Shown here in pieces: positions 1 through 52,385 of a stretch of DNA of 64,000 bases. The notes beneath the pieces were generated by a model. That model was not told the origin of the DNA, did not search any database, and saw only the letters and a program-made list of their open reading frames with translations. The stretch is from Pomacea canaliculata (taxonomy: Eukaryota > Mollusca > Gastropoda > Architaenioglossa > Ampullariidae). The translations under genes were made by a program, and so were the position numbers. The stretch spans positions 779,371 through 843,370 of the forward strand of contig NC_037592.1 in the NCBI RefSeq assembly GCF_003073045.1, written 5' to 3'. Numbering within the stretch: the stretch's first letter is position 1; each line of letters begins with the position of its first letter.

Positions 1-78
1 TCAATCACAACAAACAACCTGTAAATAGGAGCAATCACAACAAACAACCTGTGAATATGATCAATCACAACAAACAAC
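1..78. repeat. short AATCACAACAAACAACC tandem repeat
   Basis: A roughly 30-bp unit containing AATCACAACAAACAACC recurs at the left edge of the window, at least two and a half times. It lies downstream of pdxT and is probably cut by the window edge. Confidence 0.6.
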
Positions 79-96
79 CAAGTGTCCACAGAAAGC

Positions 97-102
97 TTTA
101 TT
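97..102 (-). promoter_or_regulatory. candidate polyadenylation signal of pdxT
   Basis: AATAAA on the minus strand about 180 nt beyond the pdxT stop codon. Position and sense fit; cleavage itself cannot be seen. Confidence 0.45.
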
Positions 103-278
103 TATAGCCTGGAGTACACTGCGTTGATTTTCGTCAAGACGAGGATTTTGTCTACAACACCATGGCTGACCTTTGACTCTGTCTTCTTATTGAAAACAAC
201 ATGCGCATACACACCATCCTCATCACTGACAGTCGTCTGTACAACACCATCCTCATCACTGACAGTCGTCTTGTTCTC

Positions 279-2948
279 TCAAACTCGACACAGCGCCATC
301 TTCAGGAAGTATCGGTGCCAACGTAGGTCGTCTGTCAACTCAGGATGGAAAGCTGTTGAGAGTACATTCCCTTGGCGGAAGGCCACGATGACCGGATGCT
401 GCTCGGGTGCGAGTCTCAGCGCCGCCAGCACTTCCACGGACGGAGCGGTGACGTGGAGAGTGGCGGGTGCCCGGATGAAGACAGCCCGGAAGTACTCCTG
501 GTGGCTGGCCGGGTCGTCCAGCAGACTACAAGCGGTGACGGGTAGGTCAGCCTCGAAGCTGTTCACCTGGCGACCGAAGTAGTTACGTGACACCAGGGTA
601 TCCGTGACGCCGAGCTGTGGACAGTGACACAACGACAGTTCTTTATTGACGACAGCTAAAATAAACAAAATAAGTAAAATAAGCTTTTTCATTAACCCCT
701 ACCCCTTTAGGGGGAAGGAATAAACTAAGTAATTAAGGTAATTAAGTGCTATGAGAATAATTAGTAGAAAACATAAGATAAGGTATCAAAGGAGAGTGGG
801 AGGTGAATAGGTACAAAAGTGGTTAAGAGAGTATATTATAGCCACTGTTAGCTGTGAGAGTATACTAGTCACTGTTAGCTGTGAGAGTATACTATAGCCA
901 CTGTTAGCTGTAAGAGTATACTATAGCCACTGTTAGCTGTGAGAGTGAGAGTATACTAGCAACTGTTAGCTGTGAGAGTATACTATAGCCACTGTTAGCT
1001 GTAAGAGTATACTATAGCCACAGTTAGCTGTGAGAGTATACTATAGCCACTGTTAGCTGTGAGAGTATACTATAGCCACTGTTAGCTGTGAGAGTATACT
1101 AGCAACTGTTAGCTGTGAGAGTATATTATAGCCACTGTTAGCTGTGAGAGTATACTAGCCACTGTTGGCTGCGAGAGTATACTATAGCCACTGTTAGCTG
1201 TGAGAGTATACTATAGCCACTGTTGGCTGCGAGAGTATACTATAGCCACTGTTAGCTGTCAGAGTATATTATAGCCACTGTTAGCTGTGAGAGTATACTA
1301 GCCACTGTAAGCTGTCAGAGTAAGAGTATACTAGCCACTGTTGGCTGCGAGAGTATACTAGTGTTACCGAGGACTAGAGTTAGTGGACTCTATACTCACC
1401 GAGGACTAGAGTTAGTGGACTCTATACTCACCGAGGACTAGAGTTAGTGGACTCTATACTCACCGAGGACTAGAGTTAGTGGACTCTATACTCACCGAGG
1501 ACTGGCCGCCCTGTTTCTGGTGCTCCGTATGCTTGGATAAGAGAATCATGCCCGCACATGTTCCCCAAGTCACGTGGTCTTGCTGACCAATCCACGCTTT
1601 GAGTGGTTCCTCCATGTTATTTCTCCTGCAAAGTCACGTCACCAATGAGGATGTTAGGGAATGTGGTGGTACATTATTGTGTTAGGCGACACACCGACCT
1701 GTCATTATTGTGTTAGGCGACACAGCGACCTGTCATTATTGTCAAAATCTTTTTTTAAGATCATCGGTTGCCGTGTACCTGTCTCCAGCTCCTTTCTCAC
1801 CTTTCTGTCAATCTACCTTTTGGTCGCTTACTACACACACAGAGTTCACTGCGCCACTTTGATCTCGAGCATGCTAAATACGCCACAGCACCAGTCAGCA
1901 CCACTCATCACCACACAGCACCACACAGCACCAGTTAGCACCACACAGCACCACACAACACCAGTCAGCACCACTCAGCACCACTCCATCACCACCACAG
2001 CACCACACACACTCAGCACCACACAGCCCCATTTAGCACCACTCAGCACCACCACACACCAGTCAGCACCACAGCACACAGCACCACACAGCACCAGTAG
2101 CACACTCAGCACCACTCAGCACACACAGCACCACACAGCACACAGCACCAGTCAGCACCACACAGCACCACTCAGCACCACACAGCACCAGTCAGCACCA
2201 CACAGCACCACTCAGCACCACTCAGCACCACACAGCACCACTCAGCACCAGTCAGCACCACTGAGCACCACTCAGCACCACACAGCACCACTCTAGCAGG
2301 AGCTATTCAGGATCGAGTGGTGTTTGTTCATTTGCCGACCACAAAGATGTGATGTTCCTCGCTTCCAGACTTTTGTTCGCGGTCCTGGTTGGTCGAGTTG
2401 CACGCCGGGCCAGTGTCATGGGCGTCCTTTTGTCAGTGGCCGTGTGTTGACAGTTCATACTGACACAATGTCACATTGACTGAATACTTCCTAATAGGTC
2501 TGCCGGTGTCACTTCAAGGACACGTGTAGACAGAGAGGACAAGCAGTCAAGGACCCACAGAACAACCAAGGACCCAACCTCCCTAAATACAAATAACAAA
2601 CAATCAAGAACACAAAGAGAGAAACAAAATCAAGGACGCACTCTCGACCCTCTACCCTTCTGCTTTTGTCTCTTGGACATCATTTTGGTTTCTCAACGGA
2701 CTGACCTTTGCCGTCCTATGGCGACCTTGACCTTCTCACCTTAGAAACAAACTGATGGTCGTGCTCTCCCCTCCTGGTATGATGAGACCCTTCATGTCGG
2801 CCGTCATGTCCTCAGCGCAGCGAACTTCACGAATCTTGAGCGCAGGGCATTGTGGGATCTCCTTAGCAGCCCGCGACAGCGCCACCTGGTGCTCCAGGAA
2901 CGCCCCCTGCACTGCCATGATGCCGATGGTCAACTCGGAAGAGTTCAT
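279..2948 (-). CDS. pdxT: PdxT/SNO glutaminase subunit of PLP synthase, 3 coding exons, 224 aa
   Basis: Exons (minus strand): 2948-2740, 1625-1496 and 614-279. The phases (2, then 0) close to 675 nt, that is 224 codons plus TGA, the usual family length. The start is the ATG at 2948 ([17 protein letters not shown]); the open frame extends a few codons further upstream without another ATG. PdxT is a class-I-like glutamine amidotransferase that hydrolyses glutamine and feeds ammonia to PdxS. Motifs seen: PGGEST at about residues 58-63, the nucleophile elbow W-GTCAG with Cys93, NYFGRQ-NSFEADL at about 124-137, and FHPELT with His203 and Glu205, so the Cys-His-Glu triad is intact. The middle exon is short and was found from the GTCAG motif between a CAG acceptor at 1626-1628 and a GTGAGT donor at 1495. 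The gene lies head-to-head with pdxS. Its introns contain minisatellites. No signal peptide, so a cytosolic protein is expected. The identification is firm; the 5' UTR is not resolved. Confidence 0.95.
827..1362. repeat. 29-bp minisatellite in pdxT intron 2
   Basis: About 18 imperfect copies of a 29-bp unit built around GAGAGTATACTATAGCCACT and GTTAGCTGT, with small length variants. It fills most of the intron between pdxT coding exons 2 and 3. Confidence 0.92.
1363..1500. repeat. 32-bp minisatellite that includes the pdxT exon 2 splice donor
   Basis: Four units of 32 bp (GGACTAGAGTTAGTGGACTC plus TATACTCACCGA on the plus strand) run directly into pdxT exon 2. Read on the minus strand, each unit carries TCCTCG followed by GTGAGT, the same bases as the exon 2 end and its 5' splice site at 1496/1495. 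Three further perfect donor copies and one variant therefore follow the true one. Confidence 0.9.
1660..2300. repeat. 34-bp duplication and CAGCACCA-type satellite in pdxT intron 1
   Basis: At 1660-1745 a roughly 34-bp unit (GTTAGGCGACACA-CGACCTG) occurs about twice. From about 1875 to 2300 there is a degenerate array of CAGCACCACA/CAGCACCAGT units of about 10 bp. The long open frames here come from the repeat, not from a gene. Confidence 0.85.
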
Positions 2949-4102
2949 CTTGTCCTGGAGGTCAAAGCTCAATAGACTGTTGGAGGATGGGGAGGATGGG
3001 TGTGGGTGGCTGTGTCAGCTGCTGTCCAGGTGAGATGGCCAAGGCCGGTGTACGGCTGCTGTGGCCTGCCTCCCCGAGTTACTGTCACCTGACCTGCTGC
3101 AGCTTCGGCGGTGACACCTGGATTCTGCAAAATAGCAAGATCAGATGAGGGTCTGGCTGACAATGTAAGAAAAGGGAGAGGCTGAAGGGTGTCAGATGAA
3201 GGTCTGGCTGACAAGGTGAGATGAAGGTCTGGCTCCCTTGTGGCAGTGAGGAGATAGTCAACTGGATGACCTCAGCGCTAGCCAGTCTGTGACATGACGA
3301 CCTCGGGGTTAACCCCAGGGTTTATGCATGTTCGCCCTCATTTCTGCGTGCATTTGCATTTTCTCGCGGACCTCTCATCGGTTGCGTGAAGACGATTTGA
3401 AGGTGCGGAGGTAGATGGAGTGCTTGGCTACCTGACGAGTAGTGAGCTGGAGAGTATACGTGTGATATGAAGGGTCAATGACAGTATAGTGTAACTGGAA
3501 GAGGTAAACAGAGATGAAAGTCGCTGATGTAAATATGTGATATCAAGTGTGGTGACATCACTACACCGTCTGTAGCTTTGACAACCACCCTGATGGCCGA
3601 CCTGACAGGTGTTGCACCTCAGCCGTCTGCAAGTCTGCGATAACCGGAAATCAGCTTCCACTGATTAAGGAAGATTGGGATCAAAGGTTAAAACGGTTTT
3701 TGTCTTCTGTGTGTCAGTTCCTTGTCAGTTCAGTCCTTTCCCCCTGGGTTACACACACACCAGACACACACACCAGACACACACACCACAACCCTTGTAA
3801 CCTTTGCCCCCGGACTGTCTACACATACAGGATGCAGTAACGGTCTCTGTAAACGGAAGTCGTCTGAGCATTACATAAGACCTAGTAGGTAACTGGATAT
3901 AGGCGGACTATTCAAATATATATTACATAGTAGGTAACTGTACGTATATAGGCCGACAATACACATAATATGTAGTAGGTATATAGGCTCACTATACACA
4001 CAATGCATAGTAGGCAACTGCATATAGGCGCACTATACATATAATATATAGCAGGTAACACTGTACACCTAAATGACGACGACAGCCTGTACAGTTCTCC
4101 CA

Positions 4103-4446
4103 CTGTACAACTACGTGAATGTAGTCACCCAGTACAGTGGGAGGCTAGTACAGCCACCTGTACAACTACGTGAATGTAGTACACCCAGTACAGTGGGAGG
4201 CTAGTACAGCCACCTGTACAACTACATGAATGTAGTACACCCAGTACAGTGGGAGGCTAGTACAGCCACCTGTACAACTACGTGAATGTAGTCCACCCAG
4301 TACAGTGGGAGGCTAGTACAGCCACCTGTACAACTACATGAATGTAGTACACCCAGTACAGTGGGAGGCTAGTACAGTCACCTGTACAACTACGTGAATG
4401 TAGTACACCCAGTACAGTGCGAGGCTAGTACAGCCACCTGTACATG
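4103..4446. repeat. 56-bp minisatellite between pdxT and pdxS
   Basis: About six copies of a roughly 56-bp unit containing CTGTACAACTACGTGAATGT and CCCAGTACAGTGGGAGGCTA. Copies differ by a few bases (ACGTG/ACATG). Confidence 0.9.
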
Positions 4447-5298
4447 TACACACCACTCCTGGTCACGTGATGCCGGCGAGAAGTGAAGGATGCAGCTGTA
4501 CATGGCGCCCTTCACTCGCTGTCTGCTACCCATCATTGCCACCCTCACAGCTCCACTTACCTAAAGGTCCTGTGATCAGAATCGGGATCACGCAGATAGG
4601 ATCAGGATCCGCAGACAGGATGTTGTCGGTGCCACGTGCTAGAAACATCTAAATGTCTGTGCTACTGCCGGCCTTCCCTAGGGTTTGTGTAGTCGCCACA
4701 TGGAGAGTGGTCCCCACAGACTACAGGGCGGGTCACGTGAGTGTAGTGACAGTGTCACCCTGTCAGTCACAGTTGTCAACTGTGCGGCTGTCAGCAGCCA
4801 GGTAGAGACAAAGCACACACACACACAGAGGGGGGTGTCGGGGGCTGTCCCCCCAGCTGTAGGTAAGGAAAGGGGCGTGAAGTGGGTGAGTAGGAGTTGG
4901 GCGGTGGTCCGCCTGCACAGTAACACCACCAGGGGGCGTGAGGAGCTGAGTGGGGTGAGTGGGGGTGAGGGGGTCAGTTTGTTATAAAACATCTTGGTGG
5001 GGGGGGCGGTGAGAGCAAGGGGGCGGTGTCAGATACGGGTCGGCATCACGCGGTGAGGTGGTGCGTGCGGGTGTTTATCTGTGGCCCAAGCATCACACGT
5101 GTTGTTTCCACAGATCAGCTGACACAAGGTGGTGACAGCCCAGCCACGAGCCTGCAGTGACCGGCCATACGACCGCCACCACAAGTTGTGACCGACGACA
5201 GTCTACACCGACACCTCCAGCTCTCGACCACCGCAGTGTCTCTCCTCCTCCAGGTGTTTGGCATCAGGTGAGCAGCTTTTCCTCCATTCTTGTTGTAT

Positions 5299-5330
<32 letters not shown>

Positions 5331-5394
5331 ATAGCTTTGCTGTTGATATAAATGACCGACAGTTGATCTTTGTCATGCCTACACTTTAGTCACA

Positions 5395-5740
5395 GAGTGA
5401 TATAGGATAGTATAGGTGTTCATTCACAGAGTGATATAGAGTAGTATGTGTTCATTCACAGTGATATAGAATAGCACGTGTTTATTCACAGAGTGATTTA
5501 GAGAAGTACATGTTCATCCACCGAGTAATATAGAGTAGTATGTGTTCATTCACAGAAATATAGAATAGTTATGTTCATTCACAGAGTAATATAGAGCAGT
5601 ATGTGTTTATTCACAGAGTGATGTAGAGAAGTACGTACATGTTCATCCACGGAATAATATAGAGTAGTATGTGTTCATTCACAGTGATATAGAATAGCAC
5701 GTGTTCATTCACGGAGTGATATCAAATTGTATTTGTTCAT
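5395..5740. repeat. degenerate ~35-bp minisatellite in the pdxS leader intron
   Basis: Repeated GTGATATAGAGTAGTATGTG plus TTCATTCACAGA units with many small differences. The array ends just before the acceptor of the probable leader exon. Confidence 0.8.
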
Positions 5741-5802
5741 CTGCTTGCAGCAAACTCTCTGCGCACACTAACGGACTTGTTGTTCATCTCCAGACCAGCG
5801 CC

Positions 5803-8800
5803 ATGAACGGTGAGTACAGATGATGGTGAGCTGTGTTCAAACCCCACTGAGCGCCACCCCAACTGTCTCTGTACAGAGATGGTAAAGTCAGGATCATCCC
5901 CCCTTGACTGGAAACTCCTCCTCCCTCCTGTCCCCATCCTTGCCTACCCCTCACGTGACCCAAACTGTACTGTCAGTAGTCAGCAGTCGAGTCGATAGTC
6001 AACGGTATAGTCAATAGTTAATAGTCAGCAGTCTAGTTAGTAGTCAACAGTATAGTCCATAGTTAATAGCTAACAGTCTAGTCCAGTGGTTCTCAAAGTG
6101 TGGTCCACTGGTGGTCCACGTGCATAGGTCAGGTGGTCCGCGGCTGACAGTCGTCATGTCAGCAAAGTGATGTTTACAGTGATGTATTCCTCGCATTAAC
6201 ATTTTAATTACAAAGAACGAGGTATACGTAGTTTTATGTCAACTTATTACTATGCTACTGTCACAAAAGTACATTTAGTTTTGAATTGTAATAAAACAAA
6301 TGCAGCAATTTAAATTCGAAATTCATAGTACAGACTGATTTTTAGGCCTTGGTGGTCCGCCATATTTTTTACCTAAGTAAAGTGGTCCACGGTCCGAAAT
6401 ACTTTGAGAACCACTGAGCTAGTCTGTAGTCAAGTCTAGTCAGTAGTCAGCAGTCGAGTCAGTAGCTAAGTGTGGGTACCCCGGGTAGAAACACGCTTTA
6501 CAAGTCAGTTTTACTGAAGCAGGGAATGACTATGACATGACTGTCAAAGCTTTGTCATCAGGGTTAGGTCGCTGACATCTGGCAGAAGTTGAAGGTCAGG
6601 GTATGAGTCCGTGTCACCTCCTGTCACCGCTCAGTTAATCACTAATCATTGACGGCTTGGTCTGTGTGTGTGTGTTTGTTTGTGCGTGTGTTTGTGTGTA
6701 TGTTAGTGTTTGCATGCTTTTGTGTGCGCGCGTGTATGTGTTTGTGTTTGAATGTGTATGTTTGTGTGTTGTGTTTGTGTTTGCATGCTTGTCTGTGTGT
6801 GTGGGCGCGCGCGTGTGCATAGAAACTAAAGTGTCATGGGGATGTGCAGGAGCCGTGACAGACGTCACCAACTTGGTGGTCACTGAGGCCGCAAGTACAC
6901 CTGGCAAACAGACAGGTGAGGCAGCGACAGTTAGTTGAGTGATAAACACGTGAGAATGCAGAGCTGGCGCAGATAAACACGTCACATTGTAGGTTAGACA
7001 CAGGTAAACACGTGGCACCACACAGGTACAGTTACTGTAGATAGTCGGATGGGTAGGCACAGTAGGACACCAGCAGATAATCCGATGACAATGGAGAGTA
7101 CGAGCAGGTAAATAGGTTAAGCAGCAGAATGTCCAGCGTGACGTCACGGAGAGAGGAAGTAGGTCGGGTGGATGATATGTTTCGGTTAGCCTCACTTTTC
7201 TTTCTGACTGCGAGACTTGCAAATGTAAGTGTGAGTGGCACAGTATCTATGTGACAAAGTCCATGTGTATGTCGATGAGGAGTGAGTGCACGTCACGGGC
7301 AGCTACTCCAAGGAGCTCGTGGTGCTCTCCCCTTGCTGATGAGGAGGCTAGTCTGAGCTCGCTGACCCCCGTGCACGTGGGGAGGACTATCGGGGGTGTA
7401 AATAAGCAACTTTCTGTGATGATGACATTTACCTGCGATGTACATAAGAACAGCCACGACCTTCTTGGCAGGTACATTCAAGGTGAAGGCCGGGCTGGCA
7501 CAGATGACCAAAGGGGGGATAATCATGGACGTCACCACGGCGGAAGAAGCCAGAATAGCAGAGGAAGCGGGGGTTCGTCACACATCTTGTTCTCTTCATG
7601 TAACGGCCATAAGTGGTCTGTGACTGTGAAGCATTTTGTTTTCTTAATGTGATGTTACTGTCGTCTGTGAAGCTTTGGTAATCACAATGTGATGTTACTG
7701 GTGTCTGTGAATGATACTGGTGTCTGTGAATCACTGGTATTCACAATGTGATGTTCCTGCTGTCTGTGAATGAAACTGTTGTCTGTGAATCACTGTATTC
7801 ACCGTGTGAAGCAGTGAGGACGTGCTGTGTTCCTGTATTTCTCATGTGTCAGTCAGTCTGTACTGTCGGTCCACTCGTTGTTCCAATGTCCAGAGGCCAG
7901 AGTGTGTTGATGTTTACTCTGTGTTCATATCAGTGGGCTGTGTCGTTAGATGTTTGTTGTCTTGCTGTAAACAACCGGGAAAATGGCGCCAGTCGTGCTT
8001 GTGTGTCACGGTACTCACCAGGCCTGAGAGACGTCAGTGGTGACGTAAGCTGTGTACATCGCGCTATTGCTGTGAGGTCTGCTGACGTCACATGTCACAT
8101 GTACATCACATGCTATATTTTCAGGCATGCGCGGTGATGGCGCTAGAGCGCGTGCCAGCAGACATCAGGCGACAGGGGGGCGTGGCCAGGATGACGGATC
8201 CCAAGGTTAGCTTTCATAGCTTCCATGGCGCTAGTTGTTAAGTTGTTACATCACATAAACACACACATACGCACATACAGACACCAACACGTGTTGACGC
8301 TAAAGTTTAACCCAGTGCAGTTAATAGCAAATGTTTACATGTGTACAGAAATAATTTAAGGCTGACACACACACAAGGTAGGTAACAGCCGAGTCGTTAC
8401 AGGTGTCAGCTGACACACACACAAGGTAGGTAACAGCCGAGTCGTTACAGGTGTCACCTGACACACACACAAGGTAGGTAACAGCCGAGTCGTTACAGGT
8501 GTCAGCTGACACACACACAGGACACAAAGGGCAGCTAATGACAGGTGAGAAGTAGCGGTAATAACAGGTCATAGCCAATGGTTTAGGGTTACTACCGCCC
8601 TTCATGGCCAAAGTCATGTCAGGTACACGAGGCGCATTGTGTACCCGTGTGACCCCAGTGACCCAGTGACCCCAGTGACGGCATACTCAATCCTTTGCTG
8701 GTTTCCTGCAGCTCATCAAGGAGATCATCGACGCCGTGACCATCCCTGTGATGGCCAAGTGCAGGATCGGACACTTCGCCGAGGCCCAGATCCTTGAATC

Positions 8801-11800
8801 ACTTGGGGTCGACATGGTAGACGAGTCGGAAGGTAAGTCAGCTCGCCCACGTGCTTTTTCGCTCTAGTGAATCGGTTTTGATCTTTGTGTACTCACCGCC
8901 ATACACTGACTGCCCTTTGACCCAGTGACACACTGGTCGCCACTAGGCCCTGTGACAGCCTGGTCACACCTGCATGCTACATACAGGTCTCCCGCCTCTT
9001 CCTCGTGCTGTCACTCGAGCCCTGCATGCCACTTGGCGGTGCTGTAGCCATGGCGACAGGTGTTGATCAGTACTGTAGCCATGGCGACAGGTGTTGATCA
9101 TTTTAAACACAGTATTGTAGCCATTGTAGCCATATTGTTACCTACAGGTAGATACTAACCACCGATCGTGCGATACAAGTGTTGCTACGCACCATCATGG
9201 ACCGTGGATGTAAGTGTGTCTACACCTGGAGAAGGAAAGGTGTGACGTACACTGTGGGCTAGTCGCCAGGTAGACACAGTTCTGCACGCGCTCATTGTCG
9301 CCATTATTTCTGTGATTGTGATTATTGTTGACAGTTGAGTTGTTGCTATTGAGGTGAAGTTTGGAGCCGCGAGTGGGAGCTTTGACTGCAAGCATCTCAA
9401 TGTTCACTGTTCACTGTTGACAGTTCTAACGCCTGCTGACGAGGAAAATCATGTGGACAAGCATGCCTTCACCGTGCCCTTTGTGTGCGGGGCACGTGAT
9501 CTCGGCGAGGCACTGCGCAGAATTAGCGAGGGCGCCGCCATGATTCGCACCAAGGGCGAGGCTGGAACAGGTATGACAAGTATATGGTGTCTTGACACGT
9601 GACAACAGGTATGACAAGTATATAGTGTCTTGACACGTGACAACAGGTATGACAAGTATATGGTGTCTTGGCACGTGACAACAGGTATGACAAGTATATG
9701 GTGTCTTGACACGTGACAACAGGTATGACAAGTATATGGTGTCTTGGCACGTGACAACAGGTATGACAAGTATATGGTGTCTTGACACGTGACAACAGGT
9801 ATGACAAGTATATAGTGTCTTGACACGTGACAACAGGTATGACAAGTATATGGTGTCTTGGCACGTGACAACAGGTATGACAAGTATATGGTGTCTTGGC
9901 ACGTGACAACAGGTATGACAAGTATATAGTGTCTTGACACGTGACAACAGGTATGACAAGTATATGGTGTCTTGGCATAGTGTCTTGACACGTGACAACA
10001 AGTATGACAAGTATGTAGTGTCTTAGCAGACACGTGAGAACACGTGTGACAAGTATATAGTGTCTCGACACGTGACGAGTGGGACAAGCTGTGCTGACTG
10101 ATACACCAGACCCTGTCTGCACTAACAAACGGGTACATGGTAACATGGGTACACCGTACACTGATGTCTACTTAGTAAAGCTCAGTGTCGTCAGCCCCCT
10201 CATCAGTGCCAACTGTTACATGGAGGAGGAAATCCAAGGGCGGTAAGAGTTGTTTGTTGCCAGTAGTCACGTAGGTGTCACGTAGTGTTGTGTCATACGG
10301 ACCCTGTGATTGTATTGGTGTTTGCCTCAATAGGTGACGTTTGCGAGGCCGTACGTCACGCCCGGACCATCCAGCGCCAGATTCGAACCGCGCAAGCGCT
10401 GGACCACACAGAACTGTACTCCTATGCTAAGGACCTCCGTGTGCCCTTTGACCTCCTGCAGAAGACGGCGCAGTTAGGACGTCTGCCGGTTGTCAACTTC
10501 GCCGCCGGTGGACTGGGTATGTACACTGCGGGGTACCTGACATTAATTGTACACTGTGGGTACTTGATAGTAACTGTACACTGCGGGGTATGTGACACTA
10601 ACTGTACATGTCTATGGTACTCAATATTAATTGTACATTAATTGTTGTTAATGTCGCAGTTCGTATCGCTGTTGATGTTGCTGAGGTTCTCTGTATGAAT
10701 GGAGGAGTGGAGCTGCAGGCTGTAACTTCAGGGTTAGAGGCGTGAATCCTGTGTGTAGAGCCTACCTGCTGTAGGTAATGTGTAACCATGACGACCACTC
10801 CATTCAGTCGTGCAAGCGACACAAGATCGGGGAGACGTTTTGATAGGCAGCAAGGCTGGTGGTGCATTTCTCTAAACAGTAGGTGGTGTGACGATGACGA
10901 TGACGATGACGATGACAGTCCAAAGAAAGGACTAGGGTCAGGTGTGTCAGCAAGCACCCTGCCTATAAATGCTGTCTGAACTTGTTACCCAAGGTAGCTC
11001 GCTTAGCAAGTCACCAGGTAGTCGGCTAGCGTCCACGTTTGATGTTGCCGCCAGGCTGGTAGCTCGTCACCAGCGTACAGGTGCGAACTACGGAAAGGAC
11101 ACGAAGGTACTTTTGCCCCTGGCGTCAGCAAGACACAAGGCGCCGAGGTGCTTAATTAAGCCCCTAACTACGTAACTGGACACAATAAGACATCGTCACA
11201 CCACCCCGATGGTAACTGGGGTAGGCCTATCTTGTTCGCGATGGGTGTTTGGTGGAGTCCATGCTGGAGGTGTGACTGGGAGTAGAGAGCATGCTGGAGG
11301 TGTGACAGTGGGGTAGAGACCATGCTGGAGGTGTGACTGTGACGTTTCTTGCTAGCGTTTAAAGGGTTGAGGGGACGAGAAGATTTAGCAGTGTGTGAGG
11401 GCAATGCGTGAGGTGCGCTGCACACTTTCATTTGAAGCCGAGGTCAGCAGTGAGGGCAAGAGACTCGCCAGGAAGCACAAGTCGCTTGAGCTCGAGATGT
11501 CGGGTCCAGCGTTTGCTCGTTGTTATCTTCTACACCTAGCAGTCTGTGACTTGTAATATCGACTGTCCTGACTACTCACTATAGAATGCTCTCACTCTAG
11601 ATTACTCTCACTATAGAATACTCTCACTATAGAATGCTCTCACTCTAGATTACTCTCACCATAGAATACTCTCACTCTAGAATGCTCTCACTATAGAATA
11701 CTCACATCATAGATTACTCTCACTCTAGATTACTCTCACTCTAGAATGCTCTCACTATAGAATACTCACATCATAGATTGCTCTCACTCTAGAATACTCT

Positions 11801-12211
11801 CACTCTAGAATGCTCTCACTATAGACCTACTAGAGTGGCCTGCAGACATCTGTGTGCGCCTCTAGGCTAATGCTGGATAGTATGTGACGTGCTATGCTCA
11901 GATCACGTGTCCCATTGTGTGCAGCCACGCCGGCTGACGTGTCGCTGCTGATGCAGCTGGGAGTTGACGGCGTCTTTGTGGGATCCGGGATCTTCAAAAG
12001 CTCTGACCCTACGAAACGCGCACGAGCCATGGCACAAGCGGTGACGCACTTCCGCAATCCCAAGGTGCTGGCGGAACTCAGCGAGGATTTGGGCGAGGCC
12101 ATGTTCGGCACACCTGTCAACCAGCAGCGACGTGACGTCACATCCAGCCAGGAGAAGGACAAGCTATGGGAGGCCACTCTTGCCCGCCAAAAGTTCCAAA
12201 GCACGGCGTGA
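5803..12211 (+). CDS. pdxS: PdxS/SNZ synthase subunit of PLP synthase, 8 coding exons, 330 aa
   Basis: Exons: 5803-5809, 6850-6915, 7472-7572, 8125-8205, 8712-8832, 9424-9570, 10334-10516 and 11925-12211. They total 993 nt with every phase matched. The first coding exon is only ATG AAC G and is followed by GTGAGT. PdxS is the (beta/alpha)8 enzyme that condenses ribose 5-phosphate, glyceraldehyde 3-phosphate and ammonia to PLP. Seen: KAGLAQM, IIMDV with Asp44, [19 protein letters not shown] with Lys101 (first Schiff-base lysine), the [11 protein letters not shown] segment, [10 protein letters not shown] with Lys169 (second lysine), NFAAGG-ATPAD and [10 protein letters not shown]. The protein is slightly longer than most relatives because of about 28 variable N-terminal residues and a C-terminal tail of about 25 residues after EDLGEAM. 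Introns hold a hAT MITE and several minisatellites. Eukaryotic introns argue against bacterial contamination. Confidence 0.97.
6000..6480. repeat. TAGTCAACAGT-type tandem repeat split by a MITE
   Basis: Degenerate units such as TAGTCAATAGTTAATAGTCA lie on both sides of the MITE at 6084-6416 in pdxS intron 1. The MITE appears to have inserted into the array. Confidence 0.7.
6084..6416. mobile_element. 333-bp non-autonomous hAT-type MITE in pdxS intron 1
   Basis: Terminal inverted repeats start CAGTGGTTCTCAAAGT and end ACTTTGAGAACCACTG. Flanking 8-mers are GTCTAGTC and AGCTAGTC, which match at 6 of 8 positions and fit an aged 8-bp hAT target duplication. There is no open frame. Subterminal TGGTCC motifs occur at both ends. 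CAGTGGTTCTCAAA ends are typical of Charlie-like hAT elements. Confidence 0.85.
6657..6822. repeat. GT-rich low-complexity tract before pdxS exon 2
   Basis: Irregular TGTGTGTGT/GTTTGTGT tract that also runs as an open frame into exon 2. It is simple sequence just upstream of the exon 2 acceptor at 6848-6849. Confidence 0.85.
8362..8517. repeat. 48-bp repeat, 3 copies, in pdxS intron 4
   Basis: Three near-identical units containing GTAGGTAACAGCCGAGTCGT and TACAGGTGTCA. Confidence 0.9.
9567..10075. repeat. 38-bp minisatellite starting at the pdxS exon 6 donor
   Basis: About 13 copies of a 38-bp unit that starts ACAGGTATGACAAGTATATG. The first copy begins inside exon 6: ACAG at 9567-9570 is the exon end and GTATGA at 9571 is the used donor. 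Each later unit repeats ACAG|GTATGA. The last units are degenerate. Confidence 0.93.
10652..11570. other. pdxS intron 7, no coding signal
   Basis: The intron between exons 7 and 8 runs 10517-11924. It holds a short GACGAT run near 10892-10915, three copies of a CATGCTGGAGGTGTGAC unit at about 11260-11340, and the array at 11576-11830. Open frames here have no family resemblance. Confidence 0.6.
11576..11830. repeat. ~17-bp CTCTCACTCTAGAATG minisatellite
   Basis: Alternating units CTCTCACTATAGAATG, CTCTCACTCTAGATTA and variants in pdxS intron 7, close to the last exon. Confidence 0.9.
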
Positions 12212-12506
12212 CCTCAAGGTCAGCACGTTCATGTGCGCGTGCAGCGCCACCTACACCCGCCAGGGGACTGCAGCTGTGTTTGTCGTGGTTACTCTGTATG
12301 ATGTGATGTTACATCACTCAAACATTTGTGGCAGATAATGAGGATCGACTTGTAGTGACGTGTTTCCCGTGCTCACCAATAGCTGACCCACCGATGGACG
12401 TCACAGTCCCTTGGCTACGAGACGACCAGAACTTTCTTTGCAATTAATTTTGACTAATTATTTGTGACTCTAATCTTACTACTGAAACTCTCGTCTTGAC
12501 AGTCTC

Positions 12507-12512
12507 AATAAA
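12507..12512 (+). promoter_or_regulatory. candidate polyadenylation signal of pdxS
   Basis: AATAAA lies about 300 nt after the pdxS stop codon on the coding strand. It is the first such hexamer in that stretch. Confidence 0.45.
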
Positions 12513-13600
12513 CATGCTATTAGCAGGCGAGTCTCACCTGTCTGTATATTCACGCTGTGTAAACATGCTATAGGTATACAAGTCTCACCTATAAACATGC
12601 TATTAGTATACATGTCGCACCTATAAACATAATATTAGTATACAATTGTATACTAGAGACTTAAGTCTCACCTGTATGTATAAACATACTATTAGCATGC
12701 GAGTCTGTCTGTATAAACATACCATTAGCAGACAAGTCTCACCTGTCTGTATCTACACTCTAGCTACTCCCGCCCATCGACTGCATGCACATCACACTAA
12801 ATCATTGTTTACTAGACAGTTGTCATGGTGACTGCCACTGGAGTGTCCCTCTTGCAGCACAATAAACAAGTTTGTGCACAATAAACACGTTTGTGCACAA
12901 TAAACACGTTTGTGTACAATAAACACGTTTGTGCACAATAAACAAGTTTGTGTACAATAAACACGTTTGTGCACAATAAACAAGTTTGTGCACAATAAAC
13001 AAGTTTGTGTAGCCAGCGCTGACAAGAGAGTTTTAGCCTCATAACAACGTCCATGTTTGTGTTGGTCATGCCGTGGTGTATGTTGTACATGTGCTGCGTG
13101 TGTCTGTTGCTTCCTCCTGCTCTCTCAACACACAGCAACATCCGAGAACGCAGATGGATCACAATTTCCTTTGGCATTGGTTCTCCCCTTGTCAGTAAAT
13201 AACGGCCTTGACATCATAATCACGTGACGGCAGTGTCCCTCTCCTCCCCCTCGCTGTCTTATCAAACCTCAAGGGTCAGGCTCCCATTCTCTGGGTGCTC
13301 GTTAGTGAATCACTCAGCTAGGTACACCCCGTACATCACAAGCTATACATGTTACGTAGCTAGCTGCATCCTGTACATCACAAGCTATACATGTTACGTA
13401 GCTAGCTGCATCCTGTACATCACAAGCTATACATGTTACGTAGCTAGCTGCATCCTGTACATCACAAGCTATACATGTTACGTAGCTAGCTGCATCCTGT
13501 ACATCACAAGCTATACATGTTACGTAGCTAGCTGCATCCTGTACATCACAAGCTATACATGTTACGTAGCTAGCTGCATCCTGTACATCACAAGCTAAGT
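12510..13600. repeat. run of minisatellites between pdxS and the PAN gene
   Basis: No gene is seen in 12212-13869. Arrays: about 12510-12745 (TAAACATGCTATTAGTATAC and TCTCACCTGT units); 12855-13012 (about eight 19-bp ACAATAAACACGTTTGTGC units); 13322-13598 (about 6.5 nearly perfect 42-bp units with ACATCACAAGCTATACATGT and ACGTAGCTAGCTGCATC). The 42-bp period is a multiple of three, so it gives open frames on both strands. Confidence 0.9.
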
Positions 13601-13869
13601 AGGTTAAGATGCTCAGGTGCTGGGGTACATTGAGTGACGTGCAAAGGCAGGGCTTCAAGGAGTGACGTGCTTAAGCAAGTGTATGAATGCGAGTTTTCGT
13701 TAAGTGACGTGCTTCGTCACAGGATTTCGTGGAGTAACGTGCTTCAAGGCAGTTCCTTATGGAGTGACATGCTTAGATGTGTACAGGTCTTGACGTAGTG
13801 ACGTGTTTTGAGAGATGTAGGTGCAGTTCTTTCTGCAGTGACATGCCTAGGTGTGTAGAGGTCACGTGT

Positions 13870-16800
13870 TTAGGCACAGGTCTTCATGTAGTGGTTGATG
13901 TCGTCGTTGTCCTGTGCCCTCCAGTACGAGGCCTCCTGCAGGGCGGTGACGTGCGCCAGGAAGCAGGTAGAGGAACTGAAGTTGTACTCAAACGTGCGGC
14001 AAGCGGGGTCCATGCTGCACCACTCGACACACTCGGCCCACGACGTCACGCTGCTGTTTAGGTTATGTTGGAAGATATACCACCCTGGGTAGCTGACCAT
14101 CAGAGGCTTGAGGTCAGCATCCGTGCAGTCTACACAGAACATCAAGACACACAGGGTCTAGACAAGGGGACAGGTCAATGGTTATGTAACCATAGCAACA
14201 GTACAACAGTGCTACGGTGTCTGCTACGGATTTTCTTATTAGTCGCTTACAGAAGTCACGTGATTCTGCCCCCGCCCTTGTGCATCATGGGATAAGCCTC
14301 GTCTCATACATTTCTAACTCAGAGATTGTTAGTTAGAAGCTTTTCCTTTTAAACAAAATATTTCTAGGCGGCATGTGACCCCGCCTGACCTGCAGGTGAC
14401 CGCCGCGCGGCTTTGACTAGAGCCGCCTATAGATCATTCTAGCAAGTGTGTCAGCGAGTGTGTGACGTAAGCCTTGGTACTTGCGAGGTTCAGTGGGAAA
14501 GAGAGCGCATGCGTAACGGGACGATGCTGCACACAAGCTAGCGGTGACACACGCCTGACACAACAAACTAGTGGTGACACACGCCTGACACAACAAACTA
14601 GTGGTGACACACGCCTGACACAACAAACTAGTAGTGACACACGCCTGACACAACAAACTATAGTAGTGACACGCCTGACACAACAAACTAGTAGTGACAC
14701 ACGCCTGACACAACAAACTAGCGGTGACACACGCCTGACACAACAAACTAGTAGTGACACACGCCTGACACAACAAACTAGCGGTGACACACGCCTGACA
14801 CAACAAACTAGCGGTGACACACGCCTGACACAACAAACTAGTAGTGACACACGCCTGACACAACAAACTAGCGGTGACACACGCCTGACACAACAAACTA
14901 GCGGTGACACACGCCTGACACAACAAACTAGCGGTGACACACGCCTGACACAACAAACTAGCGGTGACACACGCCTGACACAACAAACTAGTAGTGACAC
15001 ACGCCTGACACAACAAACTAGTAGTGACACACGCCTGACACAACAAACTAGTAGTGACACACGCCTGACACAACAAACTAGTAGTGACACACGCCTGACA
15101 CAACAAACTAGTAGTGACACACGCCTGACACAACAAACTAGTAGTGACACACGCCCACAATAGCTTGTGTAACTCTAATGTTCACTCCGACTCCAACGGT
15201 TCCTTTCACCTGCATGTAGCAAAAGGAAAACCCAAACAAGACGACATTTCCAAGAAAGGAAACATCAGTACCAATGTGGACGACAGCAACATAGAAGACG
15301 AGGACAGCGAAGTTTGTGTCCCATAAGACGACTACAAGACAGAAGCACTCCTACCTCAAGTACACAGCAAGAGAAAAGTGAGAGAAGTGAGGTGCTCATG
15401 ATAGAAAATTCAAAAAGGAACAAAACACGATTCCAGGTCTCATCGGATGAGTAGAAAGTGAAGTTGTGATGGACTCAGGATGTGACACTAACATGGTCAC
15501 TCAAAGTTCATGGAATACAACAAAGAAGCAAGGGGTAGTGAGTAGTGAGCAGTGAGTAGTGAGCAGTGAGTAGTGAGTGTAGACACTCAGGTGCAGACAT
15601 GCGTGGAGTGAATGAGGCCGTACTCAGAGAAGGACCCCCAACACCGACAGGTCGCGAGCTGATACAACATGTGGTAGGAAGCAAAATGTTTTCTAAGCTC
15701 CATCTCAAGATGGGTTGTCATCACCTGGAGTCACATCACATTCCAGAGACATTTGTGACAGACTGCGGACTGGTTCGCTACAAGAGATTGGTCATGGGAA
15801 GAAATGCTGCTGCGGAACTACATGGGCACGAGATACAACAGGTGATACAAGGTGTACAGTGAACAGCCAACCTACAGGTGATACAAGGTGTACAGTGAAC
15901 AGCCAACCTACAGGTGATACAAGGTGTACAGTGAACAGCCAACCTACAGGTGATACAAGGTGTACAGTGAACAGCTAACCTACAGGTGATACAAGGTGTA
16001 CAGTGAACAGCTAACCTACAGGTGATACAAGGTGTACAGTGAACAGCCAACCTACAGGTGATACAAGGTGTACAGTGAACAGCCAACCTACAGGTGATAC
16101 AAGGTGTACAGTGAACAGCCAACCTACAGGTGATACAAGGTGTACAGTGAACAGCCAACCTACAACCTACAACAGGTAAACGCCTGAAGCTGACACTACA
16201 GATGTTACAGAGGTTACAGATGTTACAGAGGTTACAGGGGTTACAGAGGTTACAGAGGTTACAGGGAGAAGTGGAGCGACAAAGTCAGTCGTTACTGAAC
16301 AGAATGAGAAAAGCTCCAGCTGAGGGCAAGGACTGGCATTACATGAAATTCTGACACATTACAGTGTCTGGTGTCAACATCCACCCGTGTACAGGACGTA
16401 TCCAGGCGAGCTGTTGTTTGGTAGAGAGATTTGTACACGAATTCCAGTTTGTAAAGAAATTTCCTCCCACAGAGGAAAGAAGAGAAGAATAGGATGTACA
16501 GGATAGGCTGCATTCAATACAATGAAACTTGACAGACTCAATATGGAAGTCCCTCAGTGTTGACAGACAGAACTCAAGTAAGATGAACACATATCACGAC
16601 TGCAGGGGGAGAGAGAGAAAGTAACCACAGTAACATAAAGCTCAATAAAGCGCCATCTGTCTCTGTGACAATATAAAATATAAATATACCAATATCAAAT
16701 GGTGCATCCCATAATTGTGTTCTGTGGCAAGCGGTGTATTTACCTTAGAAAGCGATTCAAAGCAGCAAGACCCTCTGACCTCGGACTGTGGTGGTACACA

Positions 16801-17520
16801 AGGCCAACTCACCTGCCAGACACTCGTCACGTGAGTGCGAGTAAAAGAAGCCTGGGGAGCACAGACAATGACCCGCGAAGCAGACGGACTTCGGGTGTGT
16901 GCAGTCCGAGTCTTTGGTGCAAGTCTTGTCTAGCCACGTCAAGACTGCCAAACAATAAAAACAGACAAACAAATAGAATTCATAGAGATATTGTCTCGAT
17001 AGTCCAAGTAGACAAACAGAGAAAAACTATAGAGTGAGATAGACTCAACAGGCTGAGGAAGTTGTCTTACTCTCGAGACTGTAAAGTCTTTAAACACTCG
17101 ACTAAAGCTGCAGTACACTGTGCGACATGTCGTCACTTTGCTGACTGCCGCAGTAGTGCACTGCCCTAGAGGTAGGTACTTACCCTGAAGACTGTATGCC
17201 CTGGTGTTTGCTCGGTTTCCGAGAGTAGACCCTGGCCCGAGCCCACAGTGACCCCTACACTCCACGCCCCGTGACGTCACAGTTGTAGCGGTGAAGGCCA
17301 GGCATGTGACGTCACGTGCGCACAAATCTGCGCAGTGGATCACGGACCTCGTCCACGTAGTCCATCGCAGCTCGTCGTCGGAGATGTAATCGTCAAGCTG
17401 AGGCAGGTGGTGAGCTGCTGCCTGTCTCACCTTCACTGACCACAGAATCTCTGGTGCTACTGACGTCACATGCAGCGCCAAGCCCACCGCAACTGTCACC
17501 ACCACCAGACCCACAGCCAT
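13870..17520 (-). CDS. secreted PAN/Apple-like plus EB/EGF-like protein, 3 exons, 242 aa
   Basis: Exons (minus strand): 17520-17184, 16944-16813 and 14129-13870. The phases (1, 1) close to 729 nt with a TAA stop. The start MAVGLVVVTVAVGLAL is a hydrophobic signal peptide. Module one is about residues 45-110, with spaced cysteines in a PAN-like pattern (HCADLCARDVTCLAF, then CRGHCG). Exon 2 encodes CTKDSDCTHPKSVC and GHCLCSPGFF, a Cys-rich EB/EGF-like unit. Exon 3 is a second PAN-like module (WAECVEWCSMDPACRTFEYN, then CFLAHV). Each module sits in its own phase-1 bounded exon, as expected for shuffled extracellular domains. The role is unknown; a secreted adhesive or recognition protein is plausible. 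Module names rest on cysteine spacing, not on a profile search. Gene structure is more certain than function. Confidence 0.82.
14545..15152. repeat. 30-bp minisatellite, about 20 copies, in PAN gene intron 2
   Basis: Very regular units of 30 bp (ACACGCCTGACACAACAAAC plus TAGTAGTGAC or TAGCGGTGAC). The two variants, GTAG and GCGG, are interspersed. Because 30 is a multiple of three, several frames stay open on both strands for more than 220 codons. Confidence 0.95.
15170..16620 (+). mobile_element. Ty3/Gypsy-like LTR retrotransposon fossil, fragmentary
   Basis: Plus-strand translations resemble parts of a Gypsy polyprotein: a reverse transcriptase piece (about 15595-15870, with FSKLHLKMG and VTDCGLVRYKRLVMG) and, further on, a piece resembling the tail of an integrase region (about 16370-16500). 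The copy is clearly broken, with many disruptions and large parts missing. No paired LTRs were recognised. A 36-bp tandem array sits inside it. It looks old. It lies in intron 2 of the PAN-type gene on the opposite strand. Confidence 0.7.
15838..16165. repeat. 36-bp minisatellite inside the Gypsy fossil
   Basis: About nine nearly identical 36-bp units (ACAGGTGATACAAGGTGTAC plus AGTGAACAGCCAACCT), followed at 16200-16266 by GGTTACAGA-type 9-bp units. The left end grades into the fossil's own sequence, so the unit may derive from it. Confidence 0.92.
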
Positions 17521-17714
17521 GGCCGTCCTCCTGAAACGTCACAGGTCACGCGACATCACAGCCACCCCAGTGTCATTCTGACAGCGCCAGAGATGTGTAA
17601 CGTCACACGAGACATTCTGACAAAGCCCGAGATGTGACAGGAATAACTGTCGTCACAGGAGACTGTGGCTACGTCACTACTAACACTATTTAACCTGTAA
17701 CGCCCACTGCGTGA

Positions 17715-18570
17715 CGACCTTTTTGTTTGCATGTTTATCATTATTATCGATACATGACAACGACTTTATTGTTTGTGTGTTTATCATTATTGATACACGA
17801 CAGAGTCTATTGTTTGCATGTTTATCATTATTGTTGATACATAACGACCTTATTGTTTGCATGTTTATGTCAACCCGCGTGTTTATCGCGAAGAACGCTC
17901 ACTGACAACAGATCCACGACTACGTGTGCCGCCTGTCAGCAGCCTGCTGGCCGTGGGTCAGTCTGTGAGCTCCTCACCCACCTACTCGTCGGCACGTTGG
18001 TCAGCATGTCTGTCCCGTTACTGCTGAGTGGTGTTCACGTGTCAATTGTTTTAACAAATCTTTTCAAACACTTTAAACCAAACAGTCAACAATTAGTTGT
18101 TTACAAACCAAACGGTCGACACCAGTTGTTAAAGTGGAAGACGATGTACTTTGACCTTTGTCTACACTCTACAGGACTGCACTGTAACTTACCTGAAGTA
18201 CCTGTAGCACAGTAGCAGAGCCTCCACCTGTAGCAGGTGTACTACCCTATCATCGAGTAGCCACTGGCTGTAGCTGTGATCACCACTCACTGTAACTTAC
18301 CTGAAGTAACCTGTAGCAGTCTCAGGTGTACTACCCTATCATAGAGTAGCTACTGGCTGTAGCTGTGATCACCACTCACTGTAACTTACCTCAAGTAGCC
18401 TGTAGCACAGTAGCAGAGCCTCCACCTGTAGCAGGTGTGCTAGCCTATCATCGAGTAGCTACTGGTTGAAGCTGTGATCACTCACTGTAACTTACCTGAA
18501 GTAACCTGTAGCAGTCTCAGGTGTGCTAGCCTATCATCGAGTAGCCACTGGCTGTAGCTGTGATCAGAAC
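17715..18570. repeat. two minisatellites upstream of the PAN gene
   Basis: 17715-17870: three to four units of about 45 bp with TTGTTTGCATGTTTATCATT. 18172-18570: about four units of roughly 95-110 bp with ACTGTAACTTACCTGAAGTA and CTGGCTGTAGCTGTGATCA. No coding exon is recognised in 17521-18800; the PAN gene promoter must lie here. Confidence 0.85.
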
Positions 18571-21500
18571 TTAGTTGTCAAGGTGTAGCTACACAACCAC
18601 TGCCCCTGTACCTCCTGGCACCCACCATGACCCGGCAGCAAACTTTCTGTCTTCAGGTTGAACTTGAGCCAGCATGGACCGCCACCTTTATAATGTAGCA
18701 CACGTCACGTGACGCTGTCAAGTCACGTGGTGCGTTGAAACTACTGACAGCGTTTACTGGACGTTGGCTGACTGCAACTAGCGCCCCCTAGCGTCTTGCG
18801 CCACTTCAAGACAGAATGGTGACGTCACTGTTTGCTTTATTCGATATCAACCGTCGTGCTGCCCGGTGGACACGCGTTTGCACTCAGACCTTCGTGAGTG
18901 TGTGTGTGAGTGTGAGGGGGGATGAGTGAGGGGGTGAGGCCCCCACAAGTTTGTTGAGGCGGAGAATTACTCTGGCACAACGCGGCTCCTCAAGATGCTA
19001 GAGCGAGATTTCTTGACGGTGTTGGGGCAAAACTACTTCATTCAGTCACCTGACAAAGCAGGGGCGGTAATTCTGTCATCAGCACTCGGTAAACTAAGGG
19101 CGCAGGTAGCGGCCGTGTTAGTCAATCAATCACTGTCAACCTCACTCCAGGTAAATGGCTAATGGCGTACAAAACATCAGCCTGAGTGGCTCGCCCGGTG
19201 CACTGTGGGCCGCCACGTGATGCATACGGGAGTTAAGTCCCCCCTCCTGTGAGCGGTACACTGTGTCTAGCATGCACCACATCTCTATCAGGAGTCGGAG
19301 GCAGCTGACCCGATGACCTTCACCTGTGAAAAAAGCCGCAGCAACCACATCACCTCCAAACTTTACTGAGCTTTGCTGAGCTTACTGAACGTTAGAATCT
19401 CACGTGACACACACGACAATGCTCCGGGCCCTGTTTTGGAAGTGTTTGGTGTGTGGGGTGGAAGAATTGTGTTGCTGGTGAAAACCGCGAGTCGCCAACA
19501 GTTTCCCTTCCAGACTTTATTTGAAAAAACACAAGACGGCGCCCCAGATAATAATCATACATCATACACACCGGTGTAAACGGTGGAAAATGGCGGGCAC
19601 AAAACGATGAAAGGAATTAAAAGCAAAGAAACAAACGAAGAATAACCGTTGAACTATTTGCCCTGCAATCATAACAAAAATAAAAAGACTGTCAGTATCC
19701 CGAAATAACGCTCCTGAAAAAACCTGACAATGGTTATCGTAAAATCCTGTGACAAATCCATGGCAATGCATGTTGACACCTTACACTACAATGTATGTTG
19801 ACACCATACACAGATACACTACAATGTAGGTTGACACCATACACTATGTAATGTATATTTAGATTGTCTAAAGAGTGGTCACTTGTGACCCTGTTTGTGT
19901 CTGGATTTGCAGCGAGAGACCAAAGAGGCAGGAAGCCGGGCAGTCAGATCATGAACGTAGATCCTATCTACGTTCATGGTTGAACAAAGATAGTCACGCC
20001 GTGGTCTCCAACTCACACCGGCTTGCCCAGTGGAGGACAAGCTTTTCACGTTAAATCTTGGTGATTAACACGTCCCAATGAATTAAAATAAGGCGAAATC
20101 CTGATAATTTAGAGTGCATCTATGAAGTTTTTGTGTAGTTTAGATGACCACCATGTTTGATTAATAATGCATTTTAAGCACCAGAAATAAATGCTTGTAT
20201 TTAAAAGCAACGCACAAGCTACAGATGTCAATCAGATGTGACCAGCTGACCACCCCCCTCGTGACGTAGTATGGATGAGTGGATACAGGGTCCGTGTGTC
20301 CTGTGTAACGGTCATTGCCACCACGCCTGTTGTGGCTTCAGGCATCGTTCATTTGCCCGTCATTTGTCCTCACTATTGTTCGATGGTTGTGCCATGCATT
20401 GTCTGTAGAGGGCATTTAATCTTTGTTTGGTTTTGTAATTTGTTGTCTGGAGAAAGTCCTTTGAACTGGCACCCATGACCTGGCAATCATTGTATTTGCT
20501 TAAAGAATGCACAGCTCTCTTGAGTGACACCCATTTGTCCTCGACACCCGTAGTTAACTAGAGTTTCACACCATGTCACCTCCACACCTGTACAAATGAC
20601 ATCAAACAAGGACATCAAGGTGCAGTGGTGCTAGAACACAATGACAAGTCAAAGAAGGAGTTATGAAAAATGTTTTAATTTTCAAGGAAGTCCGCTGTAG
20701 TAAAACCGAAGAACAGGCTGTTCCATTAATCTGGCAAATCATTATCACATAAAGCAGATGCTGCCCGACAGAATGGTGGCGGTCTTGTAATGAAGCATAC
20801 TGCTTGTGCTCATAACAAAGGAAGTGGGGGGCGGGGTTCAAGGGAGACCACGTAATGCTAGCTGTGGAATATGTATCCCTTTAGGTCAAAGTATGAAGAG
20901 TGGAATGAGAGCGACAAGGTGAGCAAGGTTACTTGCTAGGCCACATATTGTAACATTGCAACTCTCCTGAAGAATCCAACCATGATATACTCTCCTTTAC
21001 ATTTCCTGCGAGTCAAATCATGATGTCCACGTCACCTGCCTACAACATACCTTTACAGTGGACAAGCCCTGAATCTTGAGTAGTCACACTAAGACCATTA
21101 CACTGTTACTATTGCATATTCACACATTCAAGCAGGTACAAAAGTCAGCAGGGACTGTGGAAAGCAGCAAGTAACAAGCAGTCCACTGCACTGCGCCTGC
21201 CAGGATAACACACCATCTCACTCAGGTGTCAAATCTCTTGCACCAGAAAGGTTAACAAGCTATCTCACTCAAGGAAGGCATCTGTAGCATCAACCAGGTT
21301 AACAAGCCATCTCACTCAAGCATCAAACCTCTTGCACCAACTGGGTTTAAAAGCTATCTCACTCGATGAAGGCATCCATAGCATCGACCAGGTTAACAAG
21401 CCACCTCTCTCTAGGAAGGATTCTGCAATGATCTCTGGACCTGGGGCTGGCCATTTGGATTATACAGATGTACAGTGGTTCTCTGCTGTATCATGATCAG

Positions 21501-51925: not shown

Positions 51926-51929
51926 TACA

Positions 51930-52385
51930 AGGGGCCTGGAAAGATCGTCTACCCCGGACTCAGGTTTACTTCCTTCACCAGCCTGACATGCAGGACACGT
52001 GCTACGAGGAGATCCACATGGTTATTGGAACAGAGCGAGCGCCCAGCATACAAAACAGACATAACCCAGACCTCAGTTTATATGGAGGCTGTCATCATGC
52101 TTTGCTACGTCAACACTGCACCCCTGAATATGACATGGAGTTTGGTGGATACACGATCCCTAAAGGCACGTTAGTCATCCCCAACCTGGATTCTATGTTG
52201 AAAGCTCCAGAGACCTGGGGTGACCCTGACACATTCCGATCTGAGCGTTTCATAGGAGAGAATGTCAGTTGTGGCGATCCAAAGAGTTCATTTTCCTTCT
52301 CTATGGGTCGGCGCATCTGTTTGGGTGAGACACTTTCCCGAATGGAATTATTTGTATATCTGTCAACAATGGTATTCTCATCTCT
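51930..52385 (+). pseudogene. cytochrome P450 (CYP2-like) C-terminal pseudogene fragment
   Basis: Recognisable in order: HQPDMQDTCYEEIHMVIGTE (J-helix region), EFGGYTIPKGTLVIPNLDSM, PETWGDPDTFRSERFI (PERF region) and FSFSMGRRICLGETL with the heme cysteine. Between about 52070 and 52125 the frame is lost: the conserved YMEAVIM and YVNTAPL appear in another frame, and part of the segment is missing. The piece is contiguous where many CYP2 genes have introns, and it stops after LSTM, near a usual last-intron site. 5' parts and the final exon are absent. A fragment of a real functional gene is less likely. Confidence 0.78.

Follow-up and report, generated by a model that had tools for sequence, protein, structure and literature searches.

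An intact, intron-rich and divergent pair of vitamin B6 synthase genes, PdxS and PdxT, in DNA that is most likely animal

Does an animal carry its own genes for making vitamin B6 and, if it does, from where did they come? The question is raised by a stretch of DNA of 64,000 nucleotides (the window) which holds, between positions 279 and 12211, genes for both subunits of pyridoxal 5'-phosphate (PLP) synthase, namely the glutaminase PdxT (SNO, PDX2) and the synthase PdxS (SNZ, PDX1). Animals are described as unable to make the vitamin in the abstract of one review (PMC7954711) and in the available text of a 2025 sponge paper (PMC12665527), and the available parts of two further reviews say this of most animals (PMC6253932, PMC6071262). 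Very probably, the window contains an intron-rich nuclear animal pair of SNZ/SNO (PDX1/PDX2) genes, arranged head to head, which would make PLP and would be old in its lineage.

On splicing, PdxT reads as a protein of 224 amino acids encoded by three minus-strand exons (2948-279, intron phases 2 and 0) and PdxS as one of 330 amino acids encoded by eight plus-strand coding exons (5803-12211, intron phases 1, 1, 0, 0, 1, 1 and 1). Together they have 11 coding exons and nine introns of 506-1,408 bases, all nine bounded by GT-AG and compatible in phase, with no internal stop codon. The two genes stand head to head with 2,854 bp between the ATG codons of PdxT (2948) and PdxS (5803). An earlier note on this DNA had described eleven coding exons with matched phases in a divergent pair with 2.85 kb between the starts; re-splicing returned the same coordinates, exon count and phases, and the measured distance agrees with the one it gave. 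The first coding exon of PdxS contributes just seven coding bases (5803-5809). Judging from the splice signals, these probably lie within an exon of 59 bases (5751-5809, or the shorter 5794-5809), downstream of an untranslated leader exon whose last base is 5267. The interval between the genes also contains a 56-bp unit repeated in tandem about six times (4103-4444) and, upstream of the probable leader exon (donor 5267/5268), a TATAAA at 4983 which is suggestive only as a promoter signal for PdxS. No second copy of PdxS or PdxT was found within the window at E 1e-5. The features of the pair are as follows.

2740..2948, minus strand: PdxT coding exon 1, with the ATG start, residues 1-69 up to SLFLR and the PGGESTT motif (gene model and family match)
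1496..1625, minus strand: PdxT coding exon 2, with Cys93 within WGTCAG (gene model and alignment)
279..614, minus strand: PdxT coding exon 3, with His203 and Glu205 (FHPELT) and the stop codon (gene model and alignment)
5751..5809, plus strand: PdxS exon with the start codon at 5803; its 5' end at 5751 is deduced from the acceptor, and a second acceptor would place it at 5794
6850..6915, plus strand: PdxS coding exon 2 (gene model)
7472..7572, plus strand: PdxS coding exon 3, with Asp44 (gene model and alignment)
8125..8205, plus strand: PdxS coding exon 4 (gene model)
8712..8832, plus strand: PdxS coding exon 5, with Lys101 (gene model and alignment)
9424..9570, plus strand: PdxS coding exon 6, with Lys169 (gene model and alignment)
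10334..10516, plus strand: PdxS coding exon 7 (gene model)
11925..12211, plus strand: PdxS coding exon 8, carrying the GSGIF stretch, an extended C-terminus and the stop codon (gene model and alignment)
2949..5802, no strand: interval between the start codons, 2,854 bp, with the TATAAA at 4983, the leader donor at 5267/5268 and the tandem repeat at 4103-4444

As judged from the profile scores, the family matches of the two proteins are far beyond chance. Pfam places PdxS in SOR_SNZ (E 5.4e-110) and PdxT in SNO (E 6.2e-46), and curated equivalog cut-offs of NCBIfam are exceeded by PdxS in two models (NF003215, 486.9 bits vs 395; TIGR00343, 471.3 bits vs 438.45) and by PdxT in one (TIGR03800, 156.8 bits vs 105.55); in a narrower second model (NF010050) PdxT stays below the cut-off, at 91.5 vs 181. 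The first match of PdxS among the sequences of the PDB is 2zbt, which we take to be the PdxS of Thermus, followed by PDX1.1 and PDX1.3, presumably the Arabidopsis entries, with yeast SNZ1 lower down, while each of the 12 PDB entries matched by PdxT is a PdxT/PDX2 protein or a predicted relative of one. In alignments with the Bacillus subtilis proteins, Asp44, Lys101 and Lys169 of PdxS fall on Asp24, Lys81 and Lys149, and Cys93, His203 and Glu205 of PdxT on Cys79, His170 and Glu172. All six positions that the earlier note had named as key residues are therefore kept, under the residue numbers it had given. We take the aspartate and the two lysines of PdxS and the Cys-His-Glu triad of PdxT to be the catalytic residues, and the GSGIF stretch of PdxS presumably binds phosphate.

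The same alignments bear on the idea that the two genes are inactive relics or have been repurposed for another job. Compared with B. subtilis, PdxS extends about 20 residues further at its start and about 16 at its end, and PdxT is 28 residues longer, which would fit such a fate. However, there is not a single stop or frameshift across the 11 exons, the six named residues are kept, and the coding parts of the two genes have CpG ratios of 0.92 and 0.86 and a G+C content (GC) of 0.70 at third positions, as against CpG ratios of 0.62 and 0.35 and a GC of 0.47 in their introns. Decay or a change of task is regarded as highly improbable.

With the structure of both genes, their families and their intact residues established, a mechanism can be proposed, as the reaction of PLP synthase and the roles of its residues are well known. 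PdxT would hydrolyse glutamine at Cys93, His203 and Glu205 and pass the ammonia to PdxS. At Lys101 and Lys169, PdxS would then build PLP from this ammonia, ribose 5-phosphate and glyceraldehyde 3-phosphate by the deoxyxylulose-independent pathway. Expression of both genes, a complex of 12 PdxS and 12 PdxT subunits, its activity and the independence of the host from external B6 would be further parts of this proposal; the earlier note, too, had proposed that the animal can make PLP itself.

The arrangement of the two genes can be compared with that in other organisms. The PDX1.1 and PDX1.3 proteins of Arabidopsis are 67-68% identical to PdxS of the window, and PDX1 is not known to be paired with PDX2 in the layout of that genome. 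Yeast Snz1 is 64.7% identical; the yeast SNZ and SNO genes are short and intron-less, unlike the genes of the window, but there too a member of one family stands head to head with a member of the other (SNZ1/SNO1, SNZ2/SNO2 and SNZ3/SNO3). All three SNO/SNZ pairs stand as pairs in the table on head-to-head genes of one paper (PMC3303733, table only). The earlier note had called SNZ2/SNO2 and SNZ3/SNO3 divergent, which the table bears out; it lists SNZ1/SNO1 as well, making three pairs rather than two. Yeast has three copies of the pair according to the available part of another paper (PMC6385983), compared with one in the window. For prokaryotes, 103 loci were fetched, mostly from Chloroflexota, and 99 were left after four duplicates had been dropped. 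For 34 of them no PdxT was found in the stretch examined, and in every one of the 65 loci where both genes were found they lie on the same strand, with PdxT clearly downstream in 63 and with overlapping match ends in two. The nearest prokaryote relatives of both subunits among those sampled, the pdxS-pdxT genes of Caldilineaceae (Chloroflexota), are likewise uninterrupted frames on one strand, unlike the pair in the window. As yeast has its pairs head to head and all 65 prokaryote loci are on one strand, the layout in the window is fungal and not bacterial.

Whether the pair belongs to an animal must be judged from the spliced genes and from their neighbours, and both indicate that it most likely sits in an animal nuclear genome. 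On the minus strand, at about 27000-44000 (outer limits guessed from open frames), lies a delta-catenin-family gene with armadillo-repeat exons. A Pfam scan of ten reading frames of the window matched three of them (a P450 and two reverse transcriptases, one of these below the cut-off) and did not match the delta-catenin frames, which were recognised through PDB sequences of catenin delta-1 (E 2.3e-05 and 1.9e-12) and then through Arm repeats, present in three of four further frames. Matches to DNMT2, the tRNA cytosine-38 methyltransferase, were found on the minus strand at 60222-60434 and 60971-61285 (E 1.5e-06 and 2.9e-07); in one of the searches the DNMT2 rows ranked just after a lectin row without any passing stretch. 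Between PdxS and these two genes, a gene for a PAN-domain protein, its middle exon rich in cysteine, occupies about 13885-17523 of the minus strand (PAN_1, E 1.2e-07, for three exons that were joined by eye). Intron 1 of PdxS contains a further feature:

6084..6416, no strand: hAT-like miniature transposon whose inverted ends, counted with flank, are 89% alike across 27 bases

The inverted ends of this element resemble, by our assumption, those of hAT transposons. Taken together, the delta-catenin, DNMT2 and PAN-domain genes and the hAT-like element make the surroundings look animal, and the earlier note's claim of an animal genome holds as the most likely one; the host is a probable bilaterian.

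Other observations concern the same surroundings. The flanks of the hAT-like element, GTCTAGTC and AGCTAGTC, may be a decayed target duplication. Fragments on the plus strand at 15180-16510, which we read by motif as a decayed Ty3/Gypsy-type retroelement, are interrupted by a 36-bp tandem array, and a 30-bp unit is repeated in tandem about 21 times at 14533-15155, one of many arrays in the left 20 kb. A piece of a cytochrome P450 gene lies on the plus strand at 51847-52446 (E 1.7e-30), and the right part of the window also has a piece of a reverse transcriptase. Neither a tRNA nor an Rfam match at the gathering score was found in the window.

Between the pair and the delta-catenin gene, however, the composition of the DNA changes sharply at 20-21 kb (within 19000-21000). 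GC is about 0.48 on the left and 0.40 on the right, the observed/expected ratio of CpG in steps of 1 kb is 0.40-0.86 over 0-20 kb as against 0.16-0.42 over 21-34 kb, and the left 20 kb holds 52 rows of tandem arrays compared with 22 in the remaining 44 kb. Furthermore, when 1-20,000 was compared with 20,001-64,000 by blastn, nothing matched at E 1e-3, and at this threshold the two sides have no dispersed repeat in common. The shift could be either the border of a methylation domain or a misjoin. This raises the idea that the first 20 kb come from another eukaryote (a commensal, food or an alga) and were joined to an animal contig, or are contamination, so that the genes would be real but not those of the animal. 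Such a foreign block would account for the joint fall of GC, CpG ratio and array density and for the lack of blastn matches. On the other hand, the left side carries the PAN-domain gene, the hAT-like element and introns of 506-1,408 bases, and its excess of CA/TG (1.42-1.47 in steps of 8 kb) is like that of the right side (1.30-1.44), although none of these traits is exclusive to animals. The window is also free of any N, and a change of methylation domain between genes could by itself reduce CpG. A foreign origin of the block is judged to be quite improbable.

The next question is how the pair came to be there. A scan of prokaryote genomes supplied the best 80 of 574 PdxS relatives, and as the prokaryote rows were gathered mostly by likeness to the window's own peptides, the sampling is biased towards look-alikes. 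These best 80 of 574 loci bear Chloroflexota-type titles, except one from Dormibacterota (L062), and 56 of 61 genomes drawn from Chloroflexota gave a match. The identity of PdxS to the sampled prokaryotes is at most 74% over at least 275 residues (73-74% in the best segments, and 75% in one fragment of 89 residues), that of PdxT at most 52% by BLAST and at most 55% over the tree columns, and the best match in 58 plasmid records reached 67%. A search for a virus-borne copy gave two stretches of viral contigs that fit a peptide pattern, neither of which encodes a relative. Recent transfer or contamination from the sampled prokaryotes is ruled out by the nine introns, the long end branches, the low identity and the divergent layout. 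A recent microbial clade, which the earlier note had named as the placement that would tell against its claim, is accordingly not what was obtained; the end branches are long and the genes have introns.

The PdxS tree has 41 rows (36 of the 103 loci, four PDB rows and the window) and gives the window no resolved position, with an end branch of 0.7. In three clade tests nothing was rejected, p being 0.13 for the window together with yeast and Arabidopsis, 0.289 for the window and five Caldilineaceae, and 0.405 for the window and yeast alone. The PdxT tree has 68 rows (64 of the 69 PdxT-bearing loci, three PDB rows and the window), with four duplicates and one broken frame excluded; the tree row labelled L089_Chl is Paenibacillus, and in the PdxT alignment L095 is a Stutzerimonas plasmid and not a member of Chloroflexota. 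A subset of 40 PdxT rows included provisional sequences of Arabidopsis PDX2 and yeast SNO1, the yeast row being very long. There the window stands beside Caldilineaceae with a support of 97/88, Arabidopsis falls into the same set of 13 rows (100/97) and yeast lies outside. A clade of the window with the provisional yeast PdxT was not rejected (p 0.097). Across the trees the branch of the window PdxT measures 1.82-2.23.

Several points weigh against an old animal pair whose genes share their control. The earlier note had proposed that the pair may have a regulatory region in common. In pairs with a bidirectional promoter the transcription starts are expected within about 1 kb of each other and the genes to be co-regulated, and for such an arrangement a distance of 2.85 kb from one start codon to the other is long. 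Given the shift in composition at 20-21 kb and the lack of a dispersed repeat common to both sides, a misjoin may be what links the pair to the delta-catenin and DNMT2 genes. In the PdxT tree the window stands beside Caldilineaceae with a support of 99/93 and an end branch of 1.82, and a joint tree of PdxS and PdxT with 36 rows unites the two with a support of 97/96. Finally, the window, Arabidopsis and yeast were rejected as one PdxT clade (p 0.004, two of the three rows being provisional sequences and the yeast row very long), which argues against simple vertical descent from an ancestor of plants, fungi and animals.

These groupings lead to the idea that an animal ancestor received a pdxS-pdxT operon from a Chloroflexota-like bacterium, and that this operon later split into a divergent pair and acquired introns. 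It is consistent with the Chloroflexota-type titles of the best 80 of 574 PdxS loci (one from Dormibacterota) and their segments of 73-74% identity, with both Caldilineaceae groupings and with two stretches in PdxT: GQKxGGQ, which the window has in common with the Caldilineaceae-type loci L001, L005, L009, L011 and L015 and not with the other bacteria aligned, and RNYFGRQ, which it has in common with the PdxT of Caldilineaceae. By contrast, the sampling favours look-alikes gathered with the window's own peptides, the PdxT branch is long, Chloroflexota without the window were not rejected as one clade in the joint tree (p 0.126), and PdxS taken alone allows the window to group with yeast and Arabidopsis. 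The provisional Arabidopsis PDX2 also falls into the same 13-row set, so the likeness to Caldilineaceae may be common to several eukaryotes. As the rows were picked by likeness and the branch of the window is long, the grouping with Caldilineaceae is a lead rather than a finding, and an origin by transfer from Chloroflexota is considered rather unlikely. A more specific version is more doubtful still: animals would have gained or regained self-sufficiency in B6 by an old transfer of a Caldilineaceae operon, which turned divergent and intron-rich and was kept by this probable bilaterian. Some members of Caldilineaceae live in sponges. Most likely, the pair is old in the lineage and common to sponges and fungi; most other animals would have lost it, and here the divergent layout would have persisted.

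Known animal cases must be considered as well. Seack et al. (2001, BBA 1520:21-34) described SNZ and SNO genes in the sponge Suberites domuncula, reportedly standing head to head and with a promoter that was tested in mammalian cells; like the probable host of the window, this is an animal with both subunits, a sponge set beside the window by description only. PDX proteins of molluscs and cnidarians may already stand in databases; if they do, the pair is less unusual than it appears. In a review the pathway is listed for some sponges (PMC7954711). The earlier note had counted nematodes among the animals that lack the pathway, to which cyst nematodes (Heterodera, Globodera) are an exception, as the available parts of three papers describe de novo vitamin B6 genes in them as horizontally transferred (PMC4901422, PMC5664098, PMC11817004). 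These are animals like the probable host of the window, but plant parasites whose genes are described as transferred, and the likeness is one of description only. Among the open-access papers listed, no title or abstract opening dealt with a PdxS/PdxT pair from molluscs, annelids or any other lophotrochozoan. The available text of an annelid paper has B6 made by endosymbionts (PMC10192322), and the main texts of two papers on animal gene loss contain neither 'vitamin' nor 'pyridox' (PMC4339202, PMC6040629).

The pair in the window adds to the B6 synthase genes already known from a sponge, fungi and cyst nematodes. If a probable bilaterian has kept the pair intact, the loss of B6 synthesis among animals would have been patchy, and the pair offers a system for testing independence from dietary B6 and the timing of B6 loss in animals. 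It also raises the question of whether coincidence or an old co-regulated unit lies behind the yeast-like head-to-head layout.

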